From Pilaira anomala (lineage: Eukaryota > Mucoromycota > Mucoromycetes > Mucorales > Mucoraceae): a stretch of 64,000 nucleotides of DNA. This document shows positions 10,923 to 56,517 of this stretch, piece after piece (within the stretch, counting starts at the first letter, position 1; every line of letters starts with the position of its first letter). Location: NCBI GenBank assembly GCA_025716855.1, contig JAIXMQ010000008.1, positions 682,001-746,000 on the forward strand. Reading direction: 5' to 3'. A program made the translations under genes and the position numbers. The notes beneath the pieces were generated by a model, which saw nothing but the letters and a program-made list of their open reading frames with translations, was not told where the DNA came from and made no database searches.

Positions 10923-11093
10923 CAGGGTTTCCCACTATTTTTGGGAAATTAATGGGAAAAAAATTTAAAAGTTAATAAAACCAAGTTTGAAAGTTGATGG
11001 AATAAATTTTGAATATAAATTAAATAAAGTTTGAAAAAATTAGTTAGTAATGTGATTCTTACATAGACGTTTTAACGCTTTACCTGTATCGAG
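10923..11093. repeat. left terminal inverted repeat of the Fanzor element
   Basis: It matches the reverse complement of about 13793-13961, starting CAGGGTTTCCCAC and ending near CTTTACCTG. Differences are scattered substitutions and short A/T indels. Confidence 0.7.
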
Positions 11094-11123
11094 GTTTTCC
11101 AAAGCGATAACTTAGGAGGATAA

Positions 11124-13339
11124 TTATTGTTGAAGACGAGTTTTTTTTTCTCCCAGTTTGATTGAGTCATAGTTTTTTCTTTTGATTGAGTCTTTTTGAC
11201 TTCTCAAGAATATTGCAGGTTTCTGGGATGTATTCCTTAAGCTAGTTACGATCTTCCTAAAATTTAATACAGCAGCAAGATCCCTGTTCCATAGTCGATA
11301 CTTTATATTCTCTTGATCCTTTTCAGTTAATGCCTGTTTCTCCAAACAGTTTTGATTTAAGCATCTAAACACAAGTTACTTAAACCTTTCATTGATATAA
11401 AATATGTAAGAAATACCTTAAAAGCCCATGGCATGTTACTTTGGATTAGTCGAACGTCGGTATGGCCTTGGATTAATACATTCTTTAAAAGTTGCTAGCT
11501 TGTTTTCACAAGAAGGACAGATACTAGAAGTTTTGAACTCATCCAAAAGATTAACTTTAAACCCTTCTTTTCCTATAAGCTATTTCTTAATCTGTTTCCT
11601 TTAATGGGTTCGTGAAACCTTGTGCGGGAAGCAGACCAATTTCCCAAAATTAAGATACAATCCTTTCCAAACTTTTTTCTGATGTTTTTTGCTAAATAAA
11701 CGTTTGGTTGATTGAATTTTATTGATATGGGCACTGAGCTTCATCTTTCTAAAGGGGATTAAGTCTTTCTTTCTCTTATCCTTCTCTACATCTTCATTTG
11801 AATAGTATCCTTGCATCTTAGCAAGAAGTAACTTCAGTTCTAATCTTTAAGTATTCAACAAATGCTTCCTTCTTTACTGTGAGTGGCGAGCACTTGCTGA
11901 GTTTGCCCTCGCAATCTTGAATGTCTTTTGGTTTCAACTGTTGTTGCCGCAGCTTTTTAAATTTTGTTGATTTTGTTTCCTTTGCTTTTTGATTTCTCGT
12001 GTATTTACCTGTAAATTGTTTTGTTATTGACTGTGCTATCTTCGTGCATACAATAAATTAGATCACGTAGACCAGGATCAATGAATACACATTTTCCATT
12101 TGTATATCGTAGTTCCTCGTTGGATATTTGTTCAATATATTTGAGTTCTTCATCTTCCACTAAACTGGCCTTGGTATTACTTGTACCACCTTTAGACGTG
12201 TCGAAATTTTGTTTTATAACAGAAATACCTATGCCATCTGTCATTATAGTTCCTCTGAACTTCATGGAGCTGTTTAGGCCTTGATCTTTGAAAGGTTTTG
12301 AAGATAAATTTAGGACTTTTCTCCAGATATACCCTTTATCCAATTTGCTTCTTTGGGAATTTTTTAATATATGATTGTTCAATATCACAGTATCAATAGT
12401 CATATATGACGGAATAAAAGTCTTTCTTACAGGGAAGCATTGGAATAATTTGTACTTGTTAGCCTCGCATATCTCTGCTACTTTAAAATAAGCAAGTAAG
12501 TGTTTTCCTGGATTTGCAACAGCATCATAATAAATGGACTCTTTTTTAAACTTGTAAGTTTCAGGATAAACAGAAAATATGTCCTTAATACAGTTGATAA
12601 TAGCCTTTTGATCTTGGAGTTCTTTTGGGATTCGGCTGATATCTCTTGTTGAAATAGCCTGTTTAAGTTGTGTAGCAGGTTCTAGAATGTTACTTGGCTT
12701 TAGTTTCCTCTTTTGAGTAGCCTTGCTTTTTCAAATCGCTAGTCAATTGTGAGATACGTTGTTTCAGTCCAATCAGTTTATTGACAACCATTCTCAGCTT
12801 ATTTCCAAAATCTTTAGTGATTGCATTAGTACAAGCAGTTTGTATTTTTGTAGCTTCATATGAGGCTATTTGTTGAGCAGAGGGTAGTTTGATTGGCGTG
12901 AATGATGAATCTCTACAATACGATGCTTTATACTTGTTTATCATCTCTCTATATGCCTTTACTTTGCCCGATAGTCTACTAACATTCACAGTTTTACTGT
13001 CTAAAAGTGATTATAGGAACACTTCCTTGTAAAAACCTTGGACTGCATACTCTTCTAAATTAAGATTAAGCTCTTGGATAAATATGTATCTTGTAAACGA
13101 ATACTTATGGGTAACAATAATATGAACGTCATGAACGTGTTTCTTCAAAATAGAAAGATATCGAGGTTTCCATCCTATTCCAGTAATTGAAGACTTTACT
13201 GTCATAACCTTTTTACCATTATTATCAGTGTTTATTGATAATTAATGTATTCACCTGTGAAAATAAATGTGAGCAAAATAATACATTTAAACCCGTTAGA
13301 AATACTTACAGAGGTATATTGTTCAACGGATCCCTCCAT
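11124..13339 (-). pseudogene. Fanzor (eukaryotic TnpB-like, OMEGA) nuclease, decayed
   Basis: Minus-strand blocks follow Fanzor order: an N-terminal region (GIGWKPRYLSILKKHVHDVH, near 13170), a helical region (12690-12989), a RuvC-I-like FIDPGLRD near 12080, KYTRNQKAKETKS near 12000, a PFRKMKLSAHINKIQSTKR block near 11740, LLDEFKTSSICPSC near 11510 (first zinc-finger pair), CLNQNC near 11350 (second pair) and WNRDLAAVLNF near 11280 (RuvC-III Asp). Intact members are RNA-guided DNA nucleases. This copy is disabled by an in-frame TAA at 13011-13013 (or a 36-nt frame-preserving intron), frameshifts near 12700, 12010 and 11830, and further stops near 11600 and 11450. A short first exon may begin at 13339. 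The family call rests on recognised motifs, not a search. Confidence 0.7.
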
Positions 13340-13560
13340 TTTTACTCAAGGGAGAAATTGTTAAGAAAGAGGAAAGAACAAAGAAGAAGGATTTTGACAG
13401 CATTTATCAAACTGGTTATTGGCTTTTGGGACTGGCAAAAAAAAAAAAAAAAAAAACTTGTTTGTATTTTACAACGTAAGCAATTACACTAATTAACCAG
13501 TGCATGGTGATGCATCTCGTATCTTATTTTTGAATACCATATTTTTTCAATTATTTTATA

Positions 13561-13790
13561 AAAATAAGAGAAAGAAAGACTTAATCCCCTTTAGAAAGAT
13601 GAAGCTCAGTGCCCATATCAATGAAATTCAATCAACCAAACGTTTATCAAAAAACATCAGAAAAAAGTTTGGAAAGGATTGTATCTTAATTTTAAGAAAC
13701 TGGCGATATTCTTGAGAAGTCAAAAAAAAAAAAAAAAAAAACTCAATCCATAGAAAAAACTATGATCCGATTAAACTGGGGAAAAAAACA
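13561..13790 (+). pseudogene. inverted, internally deleted second copy of the Fanzor C-terminal region
   Basis: The plus-strand reading KRKKDLIPFRKMKLSAHINE followed by QSTKRL and FGKDCILILRNW repeats the minus-strand Fanzor segment at about 11640-11780. It then jumps to sequence matching the extreme C-terminus (about 11150-11220), so the zinc-finger region is missing. In this copy the FGKD segment is better preserved than in the main copy. It makes the element a partial fold-back. Confidence 0.7.
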
Positions 13791-13792
13791 GG

Positions 13793-13961
13793 TAAAGCCT
13801 TAAAACGTTTAAGAATTACATTACTAACTAACTTTTTCAAACTTTGTTTAATTTATTTATTCTCAAAATTTATTCCATCAACTTTCAAACTTGGTTTTAT
13901 TAACTTTTAAATTTTTTCCCATTAACTTCCATATTGATTCCCAAAATAGTGGGAAACCCTG
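13793..13961. repeat. right terminal inverted repeat of the Fanzor element
   Basis: Inverted partner of 10923-11093. Homology continues inward, with gaps, to about 13561 because the right arm also holds a fragment of the coding region. Confidence 0.7.
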
Positions 13962-46725: not shown

Positions 46726-47387
46726 TTAGTTTGCTAAAACTAAACCTTTTTGTTTCTCTTGCGTATCCTTTTTAGCTAAGGGAGAAGGAGTATGATGATT
46801 TTGATTTTTAATCAAAGTAGATTCAGGACTATTAGGAGGTGAAATGCGAATGGGAGTAGATGTTCTGGGTTGAATATATTGCAACAGTGGAGAACTATTG
46901 GGACTTGCGGGAGCAGTAATTGGTGCAGGATTGGGATCCATTTTAAGTGTAATACGTCCACGAGAACGGTCTTCGAACAAAGTCATAATATTACCATGGT
47001 CACCAACTCGATAAGAAACTGAGAATGGGTCAATCCATAAAACAAAATCACGAGGTAAATGAGCATGAATCATACTTGGTTGAACAGATGCTTGAATGGA
47101 AGCTATTATATAAATATAGATGAGTATATTTGTTTTTTTTTTGTTACAGCATAATAAAATTATTATTTTTTACCATTAGTCAAGATTGGGTCAAGTTGTC
47201 CGTTAAAATTGGAAAGTGCTCGATATCCGTTACCACGATAAGGTTGCTGAGGGTCCCAGTGTTCTTGGAAACGAACCTTGAGTAACTCTGTCAATCTTTC
47301 CTTAAAAGTATTGACAATGTCTTGATCTACTTTAGACTGTAACAGTCTTCCAAGGAATTCCACTGCTTGTGCTATTTCAATATGCAT
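46726..47387 (-). CDS. BTG/Tob family anti-proliferative protein
   Basis: Two minus-strand exons (47387..47174, 47102..46726) give 196 aa. The BTG domain fills residues 1 to about 115: MHIEIAQAVEFLGRLLQSK at the start, ELLKVRFQEHWDPQQPYRGN (box A, with the HW-P motif), then LPRDFVLWIDPFSVSYRVGD (box B). Animal BTG/Tob proteins bind the CAF1 deadenylase and promote mRNA decay. The C-terminal 80 residues are Pro/Ser-rich and disordered, and I see no PAM2 motif like those of Tob. Confidence 0.93.
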
Positions 47388-47965
47388 ATTGTTGTTGTTT
47401 ACTGGTTAAATAATAATAAAAAAAGTGTTTAAAAGCGAAAAAAAAAAGGAAGGAGACTTAATGCGTTTTTTTTTTTATTATATATAAATATATATATTGT
47501 TTTTTTTTTTTTTAGTTTTTTTTTTTAGTTTTTTTTTTTTAGGTTTTTTTTTTATGCTTTTTTTTGTAGTATAATAAAAAAAAGATAAAAAGGAATTTTG
47601 TATTTAGAAAAAAAAGAGGATTACTTTCTATTCGATTTTTCTTTTTAAAAAAAAAAAGTTAGTGTTTCGCTCGTTAAAATAAATAATTAAAAAAGATCAG
47701 TTGTAAAGGTTTGATTTGTTGTTATAAGATCTCTCTTTATAAACCTATTTGTAGAACACACAGTAAAAAAAAAAAAAAAAAAAAAAAATTACTCCTTATT
47801 ATTACATTTTAGATCTTTCAATTACTTTAGTATCAAACTGAAGGGGGAGGAGAAAACAAAAGAATTCTTTTAGGCTTAAAAATGGATGAATTACAGTTTG
47901 ATTGGACCGTGCACAATATCCAATTAAAGTACATGATTGAACCCGTCACGTTCTTCTTCATTTTA
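47388..47965. other. intergenic region rich in T runs
   Basis: It contains several tandem T-run blocks separated by AG or AGG (47497-47560) and a long A run (about 47765-47788). No gene is visible. It ends at the left terminus of the composite transposon. Confidence 0.6.
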
Positions 47966-48289
47966 CTGGATTTTTCAGCAAATTTGGCGGAACATTTTGA
48001 AAATTATGGCAGTCATTTTTATTTTTTATTGGCAAGAGTCATTTGTAAAAGTTAGAAGGGAAAACTATGGTTACTTGGTTACTGCCATTTAATTTAAACC
48101 TTTTGCCAAAATGATGCCGCAAGAAAAAAAAATTAAAGTGTCACGCTTTTAAATAAAACAGTGTCGTATGTTTTTAGAAAAGAGTATCGCACAATTTAGG
48201 AAAATAGTGTCGCACTCCTTAAAAAAACAGTGTCGTGCTTTTCAAAAAAAAAAAAATATTTCGCAGGCCATCCTATCTAATAAACAATT

Positions 48290-49392
48290 ATGTATGCAAG
48301 GCAGTTATCAAAATGTCTAGTGGAATAGCGTTCAAACCCTTCAAAAGATGACTGGGCAACTTGGTTGCTAGCATCTACAATTATTTGAGGAATAGTATCT
48401 TTTTTAAGTACAAACTCTCTTTTCACACACTACTCTTAACAACAGACAAAAATTGTTCTATTGGGTTGAGTTCTGGAGAGTAAGGTGGCAAGTAAATGCA
48501 CTTGTAGCCGCGCTCTTCAACCATCTTGCCAATTATTTTACCTGTATGTATGGGCGCATTATCCATGATCAGATAATGTCCCTTTCATTTCAGGAAATTT
48601 GTCCATCTCAGCAAGAACGTCCTTAATAAAAAATTGACATAGTGATTGGTTACCGTGCCCTTTGTTTGCTGCTTTCTGTCATCGGCTAGCTTTCTTTTCT
48701 TTGAAAGGTACCATGGGCTTTCTCAGGCTGATTTTAATCAAGCCTTTATCAGAAATGGCACCCAAGATAGAAATTGAATTGGCTCTCGCAGTTAATACTT
48801 TGACTTTAGCAGCCTCCCCTTTCGGTGCCCCAGCCTTGAGTCCTTCTCAGGGTTTGCATTGAACCATGACTTATCGATGAAAACACTGTTGCTCATATAG
48901 TCAACGCCCAACTCTATCACCATTTCCACCCATTCTTTTCTTGTTTGGATTTTCTCTGAGGCGTTTCTTTCTACAAGCTCCAATTGAACCTTTTTAATGG
49001 TGAAAGTCCATAAGTCAGCTTTATAACGGTAGGGCGTTTTTTTTTGAAATGCTCAAGTCCTTGAAGCTAATAGTCATCTGATCCATCAACTAATCTATGG
49101 TGGCAGTGGGATACTTGTAATAGAAGTCAGACACTAAGCTTTTGGTCGCCTCTGCTAGTTCTCCTTCAGGTTCAATAATTCTTGGGCGGCCTATAGTCTT
49201 GAACAATGAGTCCAGGTCCTCTTTCCAAGTCTTGTACCATTTCTGTAGAGTTCTAGGCTCCAACTTGAGCTCTAAGACCACAGCTCTTGCACTGTTCCTA
49301 GGATGAATATCAACTAAGTGAACAGCATGGGCTTTAGTCTCGTTACTGATGCGATTGCCTTTAATGCGTTTTTGTTTTGTTTTGTGCGACAC
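48290..49392 (-). pseudogene. Tc1/mariner-type transposase, left copy, disabled
   Basis: From ATG at 49392 it reads an HTH region (NETKAHAVHLVDIHPRNSAR and LEPRTLQKWYKTW), then an amber TAG after TATID. In the same frame a DDE catalytic core follows: VFIDKSWFNANP (first Asp), LIMDNAPIHTG (second Asp) and YLPPYSPELNPIEQF (third acidic residue). It also has a frameshift after RLGHRKGRL and a one-base indel near 49035 not present in the right copy. Beyond 48449 its C-terminus differs from the right copy (EFVLKKDTIPQIIVDASNQV, FEGFERYSTRHFDNC). Subterminal repeats containing GTGTCGCAC or GTGTCGTA flank it near 48160-48240 and 49384-49418, probably its original ends. Confidence 0.8.
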
Positions 49393-49795
49393 TCTTTTCT
49401 AAAAACATACAACACTGTTTTTAATTTGCGCTAAAAAGAAAAACTATCTTTTCATCTTCATCCCTACAGAACGGTACTGTAACCATGACAAAAGAAGTGA
49501 AGCAGTTCATTACCCAGCAAAAGAAAGTTTTTATAAAGATAAATAAAGCAGCATTAGATGACATAAACAAAGTGAGTATTGATTGTCATTTAGCTTTGTC
49601 TACATGGCTATTATTAACTAGATTGTTCTTTTGTAGGAGCTGGACAAAAGTACTAGCAAAAAAAGAAGCAACAAAAGAAAAGTACAATGTTTATTGCATC
49701 GCATTCAAAGTACTATTTTACGCGTTATTTACGATATTGTTTGTAATAGAAACATGTTGTAAAGAGCAACACCGCGAAAAAAAGAAAGGTTTGAC
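48449..49795. repeat. left inverted arm of the composite element
   Basis: It pairs with 54650-55995. Paired coordinates sum to 104445, or 104444 beyond a one-base indel near 49035, so the arms are essentially collinear along their length. Both arms share the same disabling mutations. Confidence 0.85.
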
Positions 49796-51413
49796 GCAAA
49801 AAATTATTCACATCTTTTTTGATACCTTTCATAAGCATATATATTTCTTTTCGTTAGGTTATTGCAGCCAATAACCCCGCAGTTTTATTCTTAAAGCAAT
49901 ACCAAGAGGATAATGAAGGCAAGAAAGCCAAGTACTTTCAAAAGTATGTAAATATCTACATTTTTTATTTGAATGGGTATGCTTACCTATTTTTTTTTAT
50001 CAGTATTACCAAGAATTACATAATTGACACAACCGATACAAGCAAAGGTTCACAAGCAAGTTTTTTTTCAAATGATTTGAAAAAATATTTGAAAGACGTT
50101 TGTCAAAATAAGTCTTTTGTCAATACTTCACCTAACAGCATTGGTATCATTGAAGCCTTTGAAAAAAAAGTAAGCTTAATATTATTGTATATTTATTTCC
50201 ATCGTAAGAATAACTCAATCCATTCACAAAATAGAGCAGTTCTTTCTCTGTGGGTCATATGAAAAAATTTCTAAAGTCTTTATACTTTCCGAAAAACAGT
50301 CAACAGCGATATTACTTTAATATTTACAAGCATATGTAAGTATTTTTAGCAGGATTTTATATAATACCCTTTCTTCTAACACGTCTTGTAGCATTGAAAT
50401 GCATGTATACAAGCAGTATTTGTTCAAGCCGCAAAGCGTCAAACTGTATTCTGAGCAAGATTTTATTGTGAAGTTTTGGTCCTATGTATTTGAGGAAGTG
50501 TTTAGTAATAGTGGGCTGTACCTCCACTGGTAAGTTAAAGTTGATGACTATCGAAAGCATAACTATTAAATTATAAAACCCGACTTTAATTAGGGGGGAT
50601 ACAAAGCCTAAGAAAGCTAAGAAGGAAAACACTGATATGAAAATTGACTTGCGCGTTCTGTACTCAATGAATACGAAGCAATCTGATTTGTCCGTTGGTG
50701 AGTTTGCCAAAAAAGCGATTCCCAGCAAGTTGTACAATGACAAGTTAAAGGAAGTTCTTATTTCAAAATTTCATTTGAATACCCTCCTTCTCTCTGGTCT
50801 TCCGCATGCAACAACATTTGTTCCGTTGGTCCAAATAATGGGATTTAACTGCCAACTGTATGTTCTTAGACATGTCGAAGACTTTTATGTTTTAGAAAGC
50901 GTCGACTCAATCTCATTCCCAACAACGCATCAAGACATCAAAGAGAACCGCATCAAAAAGTTAATCACCTGTTTAGAAACTGCTAAGGTAACACCCCCGG
51001 CTTCTGAACTATAATTGAATGTTTGTTCATCATGTTTATTTTCATAGAATTTATGCCTGGAGCTGAAAACGGCTATCAAAAACAACAGTTTGAAGACAAC
51101 AACAAGCAAAATGGCAAACATTCTCGGTGATAAAGAACAAGCAAAAAATAGATCGGACATCCGTTCCATGGTTTGGCCTAGCGATAGCGAAAATGAAGAA
51201 GACGAGGATGAGGAAGACGGAGAAGACGAAGAAGATACCGACGAAGAAGATGAAGACGACGGTAGAACAGATGAAGACGACGGTAGAACAGATGAAGATG
51301 ACGATGAAGCAGAGGGTGACGACGAGGCAGATGGCCGATGTGATGAAGACAGATATAATGATGACAAAGACGAAGTTGAAGAAGGTAGTGAGAAAGAAGA
51401 AAAGCTTGAATAA
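49485..51413 (+). CDS. cargo gene: multi-exon protein with acidic tail, unknown family
   Basis: About eight exons. The last three are firm: 50392..50529, 50594..50987, 51048..51413. Earlier ones are approximate: 49485..49571, 49638 to about 49790, 49860 to about 49943, 50004 to about 50169, plus a small one near 50300. Exon 2 may contain a stop, so the 5' part could be broken. The core (EQDFIVKFWSYVFEEVFS, LYLHWGDT, KIDLRVLY, SVGEFAKKA, KLYNDKLKEVLISKFHLN, VPLVQIMGFNCQLYVL) resembles what I believe is a large mucoralean multicopy family. The D...GExxK spacing is reminiscent of PD-(D/E)xK nucleases, which is inference only. The last exon ends in about 80 residues of mostly Asp/Glu. It starts 92 nt from the divergent transposase ATG. 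Confidence 0.6.
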
Positions 51414-51479
51414 GGGAAGCCTGAAGAAGAGAAAAATAACAAAAGCGACTGAAATGTTTTAAATACCATATCCATACTC

Positions 51480-53091
51480 AAAATGAGAAACTTGAAGTAA
51501 ATAATAATAATATGTTAATTGACTAATAAATAAAAAACTACAGTACATAATAGCAAACTCTTTCAAAAACAACAAATTTCTTGGTAGTAAGAATGTTCGT
51601 CGTTAACGGTTCTAAATAGAAATATGTAGGCCAATAGCTTGGAGTTTGTTGACAAGAGCAGACTCATGCCAGTCTACTTGGTTTGTTGATTTGACATTTC
51701 AGAATTTGAGCAAAAGGTTGGTGGTCACATTTTACGACTGCATTTATGTATCTAACAGAAAGAAAGACGAGAGACTCTTCTGTCTCATGTACGTGCTGTG
51801 ATATATCAGGTATGAAAGAAAATAAAGTAAACAGTAAAAACTACTTTTTAACAATATTTCAAGTTTTATTAAGAATAAGCAAGAAAGAATATAAAATTCT
51901 ATAATATTGCAAACAGAAAGCCTGCACCATTGCTTGAAGGTTATGTTCTGCCTGTGCGTTCACCCGAATTTTCAACTTCTGAAAACACCTTTGGTAAGTA
52001 TGAGTTTCAGCTTTAGCGGGCCCATATCTTTGTTTTTGAAAAAAGCAGGATCACAAACAATACATAAGCTTCCCAAGAGCAAGTCGCATCACTTACCAAA
52101 TCACAACCAAAACACCTCGATGAAACGCCAAGTAAGTATCATGGGGGAAGCAGTATCTTTGATAGATCTATTAGTAAAAATTGATTCTTAATGGCCGGTC
52201 AAGGGCTTAATTTGTATTTAATATTGGTGGTCATCTCGATCCTCTTGATAATCAGCATTCAAACAGCATTGGTGCGTGAATCTAACAAATTTGTCATCAC
52301 TTATTTAGAGTGCATTTCAGTACAGGTATCACACTGGTGAGTTAAACACGCCCCAAGTTGTCGCATATGTAAGTTTTTATAACAGGATTTAATATAATAA
52401 CCTTTTACCTTTTTTCTAACGCGCTATGTAGCATTGACATGCATTTATACAAGTATTTGTTCAAGCCGATTTATTTATATGGAGACAGCTGTTAGCTCTC
52501 GAATTTCATTAGGTGACTTTGAAAATAAAGCACCATGTTTGTTTTTTGGTTTTAAAAAGCATGATTATGCGCCTGGTATTTATTTTAGTTGTATAATTTA
52601 ATAGCACACATCCGTAAGAACAACTTTACAAGATACAATCTCGCACTTATTTGTTTTTTTTTCGGGTGAGCGTTTGCACATTTAATAACTGCAGCTTTGA
52701 AAAATAGAACATCCCTTGGAAGCACATGTCTTCTCATACCGGAATAGTAACATCAAGAAGGCCAATATGGATCTGATACTTTAGACCACCACATGGGCGC
52801 CGGTGCTTCACGCAAATATACTTCGGCAAACCATCGCAACTTACTTCATCATCCAGATCCTAGTAACTTTACTGTTTCTAGATACAACTCGATGCTACTA
52901 CTTTATTTTCGCGACACCAATAAGCATAAGTGGTGATTTTCCTTAACCTTCGATAATAGCTTCAGTATGATTGAACAAAGCCATTTTCAAGTGTCTTATA
53001 TAAGAACTGAAGCCGCTATGATATTGCAGTTGGTAGAGCAATCGAAACAGATACAACGCTCCAACGGTTTAAGCTGATTCAAGTAAATCGT
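51480..53091. other. degenerate cargo region between the acidic gene and the tandem repeats
   Basis: Holds decayed duplicates of the cargo family. 52380-52470 repeats the intron-exon segment at 50345-50440 (same intron end and a CATTGA.ATGCATTTATACAA-type exon start). 52990-53080 reads AAMILQLVEQSKQIQRSNG. A short frame at 52191-52337 has a membrane-like stretch (LYLILVVISILLISI) but no support. No intact gene. Confidence 0.5.
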
Positions 53092-53132
53092 GTTGTATCA
53101 AAGCCGGCCTACTACACACTATAGTAGACACC

Positions 53133-53345
53133 ATGTCTAGCGGCGTTTCGCGAAAAGACCATCATCTTTTAGAAGCTACCGACTTTGACACAAACGTAGG
53201 TGCAGCATACTGTACAAGAATGAGCGCACTAAACGTAACGTTTAACATCAATCTAGACCTTCTGCTTGGTATTAAGCTCCTGTCAATGGCCACAGAACTT
53301 AAACAAATACGCCCATTTTCGCAGTATGCTTGGATTACAACATGA
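53133..53345 (+). CDS. tandem-repeat ORF, copy 1 (70 aa)
   Basis: From ATG: MSSGVSRKDHHLLEATDFDT, then YCTRMSALNVTFNINLDLLL and a C-terminus with FSQYAWIT before TGA. In copies 2-4 the frame is open upstream through CIKADLLHTIVDTM to a TTTAG acceptor-like site, so this is probably the last coding exon of a larger protein rather than a separate gene. It is helical and amphipathic, with no known domain. I infer it derives from the C-terminal exon of the neighbouring cargo family. Confidence 0.5.
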   Translation: MSSGVSRKDHHLLEATDFDTNVGAAYCTRMSALNVTFNINLDLLLGIKLLSMATELKQIRPFSQYAWITT

Positions 53346-53501
53346 AACGCGATAAGTCTAATAGATGTGTTATAAATTTTTAGTTAAGAACTTGCGTATT
53401 TGCTATGTTCTTTTATCTCAGTACTTATCTTTTATCCCCTTTAGCTTGAGAACGTTTCCCGTTGTATCAAAGCCGACCTACTACACACTATAGTAGACAC
53501 C

Positions 53502-53714
53502 ATGTCTAGCGGCGTTTCGCGAAAAGACCATCATCTTTTAGAAGCTACCGACTTTGACACAAACGTAGGTGCAGCATACTGTACAAGAATGAGCGCACTA
53601 AACGTAACGTTTAACATCAATCTAGACCTTCTGCTTGGTATTAAGTTCCTGTCAATGGCCACAGAACTTAAACAAATACGCTCATTTTCGCAGTATGCTT
53701 GGATTACAGCATGA
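53502..53714 (+). CDS. tandem-repeat ORF, copy 2 (70 aa)
   Basis: Same as copy 1 except GIKFLSM (Phe for Leu), a Ser in place of Pro before FSQYAW, and a final Ala. The upstream open extension starts after CCCTTTAG near 53446. Confidence 0.5.
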   Translation: MSSGVSRKDHHLLEATDFDTNVGAAYCTRMSALNVTFNINLDLLLGIKFLSMATELKQIRSFSQYAWITA

Positions 53715-53870
53715 AACGCGATAAGTCTAATAGATATGCTATAAATGTTTAGTTAAGAACTTGCGTATTTGCTATGTTCTTTTATCTCAGTACTTATCTT
53801 TTATCCCCTTTAGCTTGAGAACGTTTCCCGTTGTATCAAAGCCGACCTACTACACACTATAGTAGACACC

Positions 53871-54083
53871 ATGTCTAGCGGCGTTTCGCGAAAAGACCAT
53901 CATCTTTTAGAAGCTACCGACTTTGACACAAACGTAGGTGCAGCATACTGTACAAGAATGAGCGCACTAAACGTAACGTTTAACATCAATCTAGACCTTC
54001 TGCTTGGTATTAAGCTCCTGTCAATGGCCACAGAACTTAAACAAATACGCCCATTTTCGCAGTATGCTTGGATTACAGCATGA
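53871..54083 (+). CDS. tandem-repeat ORF, copy 3 (70 aa)
   Basis: Identical to copy 1 except for a final Ala instead of Thr. The upstream extension is intact. Confidence 0.5.
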   Translation: MSSGVSRKDHHLLEATDFDTNVGAAYCTRMSALNVTFNINLDLLLGIKLLSMATELKQIRPFSQYAWITA

Positions 54084-54239
54084 AACGCGATAAGTCTAAT
54101 AGATATGCTATAAATGTTTAGTTGATAACTTGCGTATTTGCTATGTTCTTTTATCTCAGTACTTATCTTTTATCCCCTTTAGCTTGAGAACGTTTCCCGT
54201 TGCATCAAAGCCGACCTACTACACACTATAGTAGACACC

Positions 54240-54452
54240 ATGTCTAGCGGCGTTTCGCGAAAAGACCATCATCTTTTAGAAGCTACCGACTTTGACACAA
54301 ACGTAGGTGCAGCATACTGTACAAGAATGAGCGCACTAAACGTAACGTTTAACATCAATCTAGACCTTCTGCTTGGTATTAAGCTCCTGTCAATGGCCAC
54401 AGAACTTAAACAAATACGCTCATTTTCGCAGTATGCTTGGATCACATTCTAA
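54240..54452 (+). CDS. tandem-repeat ORF, copy 4 (70 aa)
   Basis: Nearly identical to the others; it ends WITF before TAA and has Ser before FSQYAW. Similarity to the unit stops at the stop codon, marking the end of the array. Confidence 0.5.
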   Translation: MSSGVSRKDHHLLEATDFDTNVGAAYCTRMSALNVTFNINLDLLLGIKLLSMATELKQIRSFSQYAWITF

Positions 54453-54609
54453 AGATTAAAATTGTGGTTCAATTAATAAATGCTGTTGGTGAATTTTGTT
54501 GATAAGCGCTTACTTTATCTCCTTTTACTTTCCAACAATGGATGGCGTTGGCGTCTGCTTCGATCTCTCTACTGAAGTTTAATTAAAAAACATTAAAGAT
54601 ATTCCAGAA

Positions 54610-54960
54610 TTACAAAACCAGGATGAAGCTACGCAGAAAAAAGTTTTGTGTCAAACCTTTCTTTTTTTCGCGGTGTTGCTCTTTACAACATGTTTCTATT
54701 ACAAACAATATCGTAAATAACGCGTAAAATAGTACTTTGAATGCGATGCAATAAACATTGTACTTTTCTTTTGTTGCTTCTTTTTTTGCTAGTACTTTTG
54801 TCCAGCTCCTACAAAAGAACAATCTAGTTAATAATAGCCATGTAGACAAAGCTAAATGACAATCAATACTCACTTTGTTTATGTCATCTAATGCTGCTTT
54901 ATTTATCTTTATAAAAACTTTCTTTTGCTGGGTAATGAACTGCTTCACTTCTTTTGTCAT
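54610..54960 (-). pseudogene. inverted copy of the cargo gene 5' exons
   Basis: On the minus strand it repeats the first two exons of the gene at 49485 (MTKEVKQFITQQKKVFIKIN, then the same donor and acceptor) and stops at the arm boundary near 54650. The rest of the gene is absent on this side, so it is a truncated duplicate created with the inverted arm. Confidence 0.8.
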
Positions 54961-55995
54961 GGTTACAGTACCGTTCTGTAGGGATGAAGATGAAAAGATA
55001 GTTTTTCTTTTTAGCGCAAATTAAAAACAGTGTTGTATGTTTTTAGAAAAGAGTGTCGCACAAAACAAAACAAAAACGCATTAAAGGCAATCGCATCAGT
55101 AACGAGACTAAAGCCCATGCTGTTCACTTAGTTGATATTCATCCTAGGAACAGTGCAAGAGCTGTGGTCTTAGAGCTCAAGTTGGAGCCTAGAACTCTAC
55201 AGAAATGGTACAAGACTTGGAAAGAGGACCTGGACTCATTGTTCAAGACTATAGGCCGCCCAAGAATTATTGAACCTGAAGGAGAACTAGCAGAGGCGAC
55301 CAAAAGCTTAGTGTCTGACTTCTATTACAAGTATCCCACTGCCACCATAGATTAGTTGATGGATCAGATGACTATTAGCTTCAAGGACTTGAGCATTTCA
55401 AAAAGAACGCCCTACTGTTATAAAGCTGACTTATGGACTTTCACCATTAAAAAGGTTCAATTGGAGCTTGTAGAAAGAAACGCCTCAGAGAAAATCCAAA
55501 CAAGAAAAGAATGGGTGGAAATGGTGATAGAGTTGGGCGTTGACTATATGAGCAACAGTGTTTTCATCGATAAGTCATGGTTCAATGCAAACCCTGAGAA
55601 GGACTCAAGGCTGGGGCACCGAAAGGGGAGGCTGCTAAAGTCAAAGTATTAACTGCGAGAGCCAATTCAATTTCTATCTTGGGTGCCATTTCTGATAAAG
55701 GCTTGATTAAAATCAGCCTGAGAAAGCCCATGGTACCTTTCAAAGAAAAGAAAGCTAGCCGATGACAGAAAGCAGCAAACAAAGGGCACGGTAACCAATC
55801 ACTATGTCAATTTTTTATTAAGGACGTTCTTGCTGAGATGGACAAATTTCCTGAAATGAAAGGGACATTATCTGATCATGGATAATGCGCCCATACATAC
55901 AGGTAAAATAATTGGCGAGATGGTTGAAGAGCGCGGCTACAAGTGCATTTACTTGCCACCTTACTCTCCAGAACTCAACCCAATAGAACAATTTT
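54650..55995. repeat. right inverted arm of the composite element
   Basis: Inverted copy of 48449-49795. Identity stops abruptly at both ends. Confidence 0.85.
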
Positions 55996-56231
55996 GGTCC
56001 AAGGTAAAGTTTGGCGTTAAAAGAGCACCTTTAGACACTGGTGACACCTTGACTCCACGTATTATGGGATTATGCTCTAAATTCACTCAAGAAGTTTGTA
56101 TTGGATGGATAAAACACTCAGTAAGCTTCTTTCAAAGTTGTTTGAACTTAGAAAAAAAAACCTTTAACAATTCCTGCCAAATATACCTCGTCTGTATTGC
56201 CATTTTTGGCCAAGATTACTGCCAAATTTAG
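55053..56231 (+). pseudogene. Tc1/mariner-type transposase, right copy, disabled
   Basis: Same HTH and DDE core as the left copy, with the same amber TAG (55353-55355) and the same frameshift after RLGHRKGRL near 55590. After the arm ends near 55995 the C-terminus switches to SKVKFGVKRAPLDTGDTLTP then FTQEVCIGWIKHSVSFFQSC, a different Tc1-type ending. The sequence then runs into subterminal repeats and the CCAG terminus. The protein would have cut and pasted the element at TA sites; both copies are inactive as read. Confidence 0.8.
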
Positions 56232-56517
56232 TAAAAATTTTCTGCCAATAAAAAATAAAATGTTTCCGCCAAATTTGCTGAAAAATCCAGTATTATAAAC
56301 ATTTAATTGTATGAAGTGAATGTTTTTGTATTCAAAAAAAATAGTCTCACGGTATTTGATTTGTGTGCTATTGGCTTAGGTTACAATAGTATTACTTTTT
56401 CGTGTTTACAATAAATAAAGAAAGAATACAACAAACTTTAAACCTGTTGATATTTCTCCGCTTTTTTTTTTTTTTTTTTTAATGGTGGTGTGACTTCAAT
56501 ACACAAATGGTGTATAC

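Follow-up and report, generated by a model that had tools for sequence, protein, structure and literature searches.

A 64,000-bp stretch of the Pilaira anomala genome (contig JAIXMQ010000008.1, positions 682,001 to 746,000; hereafter the window) contains an 8.3-kb structure in which two inverted transposase arms surround a multi-exon gene. Ordinary Tc1/mariner members measure 1-2 kb, have one gene and are cargo-free. The question at this locus is what kind of element it is and how its palindromic plan arose. A first-pass annotation read it as a palindromic Tc1-type composite that had captured and amplified host or element genes. The outer ends match each other and are of one transposon type (B-type), the terminus of a second family (A) sits just in from the left end, and the right arm repeats the left one in inverted orientation, set on a B-type tail. 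We consider it probable, although well short of certain, that the locus is a non-autonomous, nested and chimeric Tc1/mariner-type element with B-type ends, family A inside them, and a right arm copied from the left.

The TA-flanked termini noted in the first-pass annotation, 8.3 kb apart, are indeed present. CTGGATTTTTCAGC occupies positions 47966-47979 on the forward strand and its complement positions 56277-56290, TA adjoins each, and the left and right ends match without gaps over 27 bp, giving the element the TA-flanked terminal inverted repeats (TIRs) of Tc1/mariner transposons. The genome-wide search for the terminal repeat proposed in that annotation was carried out over the whole 34.25-Mb genome with the 25-mer TACTGGATTTTTCAGCAAATTTGGC, which spans TA plus terminal sequence; at up to three mismatches it matches solely at the two outer ends (reversed control, 0). 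TGGC-type subterminal repeats follow at offsets 21, 44 and 66 in the left end and 21, 45, 68, 91 and 113 in the right end, a spacing of about 22-23 bp in nearly the same register. Paired subterminal repeats of this sort are usual transposase-binding features. Past the first 26 bp, similarity between the two ends is weak (score 40, compared with a maximum of 37 over 200 shuffles). A 23-mer of the B-type terminus has 31 matches in the genome at up to three mismatches (reversed control, 1). Some of these matches form inverted pairs with a spacing of about 0.4 kb, at C156:239557-239961, C158:7175-7601, C168:15675-16067 and C200:46231-46635 (places elsewhere in the genome are designated C with a number), and these are probably miniature elements.

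Within these ends lie the two inverted arms of about 1.35 kb that had been described at the outset. Positions 48445-49801 align with 55999-54644 over 1357 bp at 99.56% identity, and a wider alignment of 1365 bp contains nine differences, including four substitutions at the alignment edges. In a self-comparison of the 64-kb window, the arms are the sole inverted pair longer than 150 bp. The mirror symmetry claimed for their coordinates holds for the inverted orientation of the arms but not for their placement: 479 bp lie between the left end and the left arm and 291 bp between the right arm and the right end, and these two flanks are unlike sequences past the short terminal repeat. Arms of foldback or long-TIR elements reach the termini, whereas these fall short by those distances.

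Left and right arms alike contain transposase pieces of a single family, A, which differs in type from the shell that encloses them. Copies of family A elsewhere start with TACACCTTTTGCCAAAATGAT, and a 25-mer of that terminus has 20 genome matches at up to three mismatches (reversed control, 0). In the window, this terminus is found at position 48095 with a single mismatch to the 21-mer, 129 bp inside the outer left end; no inverted A-family right terminus occurs in the 64-kb window at up to five mismatches. The right-arm transposase is of family A up to its FWS codons and B-type beyond them, and the switch falls inside nine bases, ATTTTGGTC, that are common to A (C193) and B-type (C131) sequences. 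Its tail (SKVKFGVKR...TLTPRIM...GWIKHSVSFF) matches the B-type transposases at C131, C2 and C28. Because the right-arm transposase turns B-type after FWS, the shell probably derives from a B-type element whose transposase gene pointed rightwards. Pfam family PF13358 (DDE_3) is detected in the right copy at 55860-56231 (E-value 1.5e-18), and both window copies lie above the cut-off in a genome-wide DDE_3 scan, which, together with the TA-flanked ends, bears out the Tc1-type assignment. The description as a palindromic composite stands as to the palindromic plan and the gene cargo; a composite of two complete elements is not supported, given that no inverted A terminus was found in the window, the right arm is an A-B chimera and cargo exons 1-2 were copied along with the transposase.

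Both transposase copies carry stops and frameshifts and neither provides a functional enzyme; the element is therefore non-autonomous. An in-frame TAG is common to the copies in both arms, which places the copying (or homogenising) after inactivation. By comparison, five other B-type copies that we examined have open transposase frames of 432-475 amino acids (aa), with C2 and C28 sharing the same frame; the B-type copies read are about 1.7 kb each, and Pfam finds DDE_3 in the one such copy scanned. Since the genome holds both the 31 B-type ends and these open frames, the B-type ends of the window element could be movable in trans by B-type transposases encoded elsewhere.

The multi-exon gene between the arms reads, in a gene model made by hand, as an open reading frame (ORF) of eight exons, and all of its introns are GT-AG. 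Exons 1-2 lie in both arms. In the left arm they run on into the whole gene, and the right arm stops within intron 2. Because proteins of Mucor circinelloides and Rhizopus arrhizus share these conserved exons, which so belong to the left gene, the left arm is the donor and the right arm the copy. The encoded protein has relatives in M. circinelloides (57% identity over 74% of the query) and R. arrhizus (51% over 83%), as well as in Benjaminiella, Spinellus and Apophysomyces. In the P. anomala genome the later part of the gene gives 35 exon-level matches, and among them no parent copy could be identified. Over 160 codons shared with the relative at C168, the proportion of synonymous differences (pS) is 0.82, which is saturated, and that of nonsynonymous differences (pN) is 0.19, indicating protein-level constraint on the family. 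An AlphaFold prediction for the cargo homolog Mucor P0001 (nine sequences) has a mean predicted local distance difference test score (pLDDT) of 37.9, a quality too low to support a fold search. A nuclease-like reading of a conserved D..E..K pattern in the protein was an impression only, and we do not claim it.

Several members of this family are physically associated with Tc1 sequence. At C168, the last cargo exon reads on in frame to a B-like DDE_3 tail, behind which come subterminal repeats and an end of the TACAGTG type; this copy is itself broken by one stop and one frameshift. A predicted protein of Rhizopus delemar likewise has a cargo segment linked to a DDE_3 tail, although the link may be a gene-prediction fusion. 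The copies at C175 and C193 have a common upstream segment that starts near an A-like terminus. Of the 197 matches from the DDE_3 scan, 150 were listed, and the counts and pairs given here rest on those listed. Five of 30 cargo places lie within 3 kb of a listed match, compared with 0.87 expected, and still five within 5 kb, compared with 1.39; this test used 30 of the 35 rows (the other five are second exons of counted loci), assumed uniform placement and counted the query's own locus, and the expected number would be higher if mobile elements cluster. The cargo gene appears to belong to a Mucorales gene family and to be carried by the element. With family members in several Mucorales, and with more than one locus where they adjoin Tc1 sequence, a chance capture from the host seems an unlikely source of the cargo.

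The junctions suggest how the right arm could have formed. A break in the B transposase gene would have been repaired with the oppositely oriented A transposase as template, the conserved LNPIE-FW motif serving as a homologous entry point. The 1.36-kb copy tract would then have crossed the A gene and entered the cargo gene as far as intron 2 before joining elsewhere, at an unrelated exit point. The copied tract would have taken the place of both the front part of the B gene and the A right end, producing the palindrome. As inferred from this one locus, repair copying between oppositely oriented transposase genes would be the simplest mechanism. Several points weigh against the nested, arm-copying reading, the assumptions behind the cargo association test among them. 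The order of events is read from a single locus, and a similar arm would result if two old copies had undergone gene conversion repeatedly. The 8.3-kb unit is single-copy in the genome, and nothing shows its movement as a whole. No left partner for the right-hand terminus at C168 was found in the stretch read, nor any right-hand A end at C175 and C193 in the stretches read there. On whether the cargo entered with A or with B, the loci disagree: B is favored by C168 and by the shared orientation, A by C175 and C193.

Table 1. Features of the 8.3-kb element (window positions)
Feature	Position	Strand	Remarks
B-type outer shell, left end	47966-48094	+	Terminal repeat, TGGC-type subterminal repeats, TA before; related ends TATTGTATTTTTCAGCAATTTTG and others
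Family A left end	48095-48194	+	TA, then AACCTTTTGCCAAAATGATGCCGCAAG and subterminal repeats; one mismatch to the TACACCTTTTGCCAAAATGAT terminus
Left family A Tc1-type transposase gene, dead	48334-49398	-	Stops and frameshifts
Left inverted arm (donor)	48445-49809		Most of A transposase, A inner repeat, intergenic stretch, cargo exons 1-2, part of intron 2
Inner inverted copy of A subterminal repeat	49382-49421	-	40 bp, 95%; outermost A terminus missing here
Cargo gene, 8 exons, 460 aa, open	49485-51413	+	Gene model made by hand
Cargo exons	49485-49571, 49637-49681, 49858-49943, 50004-50169, 50235-50335, 50392-50529, 50594-50987, 51048-51413		
Second cargo-gene copy, fragment	52363-52468	+	82% to 50330-50431
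Tandem array	53092-54446	+	Three complete units of 369 bp, the fourth 248 bp; each has an open frame (89-90 aa)
Right inverted arm (copy of 48445-49809)	54636-55999		Cargo exons 1-2 on minus strand, ATG at 54960
Right A transposase copy up to FWS codons, dead	55047-55999	+	
B-type transposase, C-terminal 52-55 codons	56000-56160	+	Joined to A copy within ATTTTGGTC
B-type outer shell, right end	56161-56290	-	TA after

Between the cargo gene and the right arm lies a tandem array, for which four units had been reported. Three are complete, starting at 53092, 53461 and 53830, but the fourth (from 54199) follows the rest only to 54446. The 89-aa array frame is 75% identical to a hypothetical protein of Parasitella parasitica and 96% identical (over 78%) to another contig's protein; searched against this genome, it matches only its own four copies. 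We considered the array as part of the cargo family and rejected this, as no relation was seen. The element is neighbored on one side by a BTG-family gene (46726-47405, minus strand) and on the other by an Rpp40 gene (matches from 56851, plus strand). An Rfam scan of the 64-kb window at gathering thresholds returned no match.

Mirror-image transposase pairs are not peculiar to this locus. Adjacent DDE_3 matches within 20 kb form 28 pairs among those listed, 20 of them inverted and 8 direct. Ten of these pairs have near-equal scores (within 0.8 bit, a cut-off picked after the list was seen), and all ten are inverted. The pair at C2 consists of two different families, and its removal leaves nine, of which C194 alone was read in sequence, the likeness of the other eight being inferred from their scores. 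The pairs at C4:57.9-63.2k and C113:494.2-499.4k agree in their transposase-to-cargo spacing (2210 and 3068 at C4, 2166 and 3051 at C113), and a 1.2-kb piece from between the C4 pair is about 100% identical at C113:496186-497383, with 1087 bases of it also at C127. C113 has an extra DDE_3 match, 15 kb to the left, with no counterpart among the C4 matches listed, and the two are therefore probably not alleles of one locus. First-exon matches of the gene in the C4 spacer occur at eight places, five of them within 3 kb of a listed DDE_3 match compared with 0.22 expected; C4 (the query), C113 and C127 are copies of one element, and C194 and C159 are further cases. C194 is a 6.5-kb palindrome with two nearly open transposase copies, built on the same plan as C4 and C113 and carrying a related cargo exon (47% identical). 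Profile comparison detected no homology between the window cargo and the 250-aa ORF at C194.

These pairs lend weight to another explanation of the window, namely that it is an old, damaged copy of a true palindromic twin-transposase element that moves as one unit around its cargo. The uniformly inverted orientation of the near-equal pairs, the agreement between C4 and C113 and the plan of C194 speak for it. The window itself fits it poorly: its outer ends are B-type while its arms are A, no right A terminus was found, the arms stop short of the ends, and the pair scores are unequal (65.0 and 70.2 bits), which puts it outside the near-equal set. Moreover, unit transposition at C4 and C113 is putative, the cargo first-exon frame at C113 is broken, and most of the pairs are known from scores. 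We regard this explanation as rather unlikely for the window. For the genome at large, we advance tentatively, at less than even confidence, that Mucorales hold a distinct class of elements in which near-identical mirror-image transposase genes surround dedicated multi-exon cargo families, stay alike through arm-to-arm copying and multiply as multi-kilobase units; the element in the window would be a degenerate, chimeric representative.

Two further palindromes weigh against this wider pattern. Homology searches fetched 15 merged stretches, and inverted arms longer than 300 bp are found in three (C190, C194 and C1:302k) and in none of the other 12 (C193:602k, C168, C145, C131, both C2 places, C57:440k, C165, C112, C28, C1:1119k and C150). 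At C190, arms of at least 7.48 kb (86502-93981 and 100757-108234; 99.3% identical) reach the left edge of the fetched stretch and flank a gene that, read by eye, we take to be a class I myosin. We rejected C190 as an element of the same kind because its arms enclose an apparent host gene; palindromes in this genome are not confined to transposons. The presence of several long palindromes in the assembly, one of them around an ordinary host gene, also gives some color to the notion that the window locus is an assembly artefact, produced by a fold-back or a chimeric join. We consider this very improbable: the arms differ by substitutions, the 4.8-kb spacer has its sole full genome match in itself, and the right breakpoint falls in homologous transposase codons, within matched terminal repeats.

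The second case, C1:306075-320596, is a 14.5-kb palindrome with 6.15-kb arms that end in A-family termini. All 15 substitutions between its arms lie in the outer 37% of the arm, with some of its five indels further in, as patchy homogenisation or mixed age would give. This clustering suggests that arms can be homogenised, and hence bears on whether the window locus might consist of two separate nearby insertions later homogenised by gene conversion. Such an origin appears improbable here, given that the arm takes in exons 1-2 of the cargo gene and breaks off within one of its introns, and that matching ends found nowhere else enclose the whole. A nested element with B-type ends and a right arm copied from the left remains our preferred reading.

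Two other loci show smaller inverted duplications. At C57:61003-65642, a 4.6-kb element with two good A-family ends contains a different gene-like frame, does not match any of the transposase pieces tried, and bears in its interior an inverted duplication (about 400 bp, 92.6%) with some minisatellite sequence in it. Within the window, at 10944-13930, a broken gene is surrounded by two inverted pairs, one nested in the other (about 145 bp; 90-94%), and one pair duplicates part of that gene. Its frames (FIDPGLRDL, CPSCENK, WNRDLAAVLNF) are reminiscent of a TnpB/Fanzor-type nuclease; two of the frames gave no Pfam match above the cut-off.

Among known systems, the element shares TA-flanked inverted ends, a DDE_3 domain and subterminal repeats with the Tc1/mariner transposons of Mucorales, but it differs from them in its 8.3-kb length, its two dead A copies inside B ends and its gene cargo. 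Pack-Mariner elements (PMC8903248) are likewise non-autonomous and TA-flanked, hold gene sequence between mariner-type ends and mostly occur at low copy number; they are described there in plants, whereas the present element is fungal and combines a complete spliced gene with transposase remnants and inverted arms. Pack-TYPE elements carry a gene between TIRs without transposase, and here the cargo and TIRs are accompanied by dead transposase copies. Composite and foldback composite elements (Tn type; Ising TE; PMC6431247) also have element copies flanking a cargo; the arms of the window element, however, are not complete elements with both ends, and its outer ends come from another family. 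A word search of the open-licence literature returned no description of such an element.

The main interest of these observations lies in the recurring mirror-image transposase pairs, some of them around cargo genes, which are candidate mobile units. If such pairs do enclose specific gene families in a fungal genome, the Tc1/mariner superfamily would also build larger gene carriers, and repair copying between opposite transposase genes would provide a concrete route to palindrome formation. Such elements may also explain some of the uncharacterised multi-copy gene families of Mucorales.

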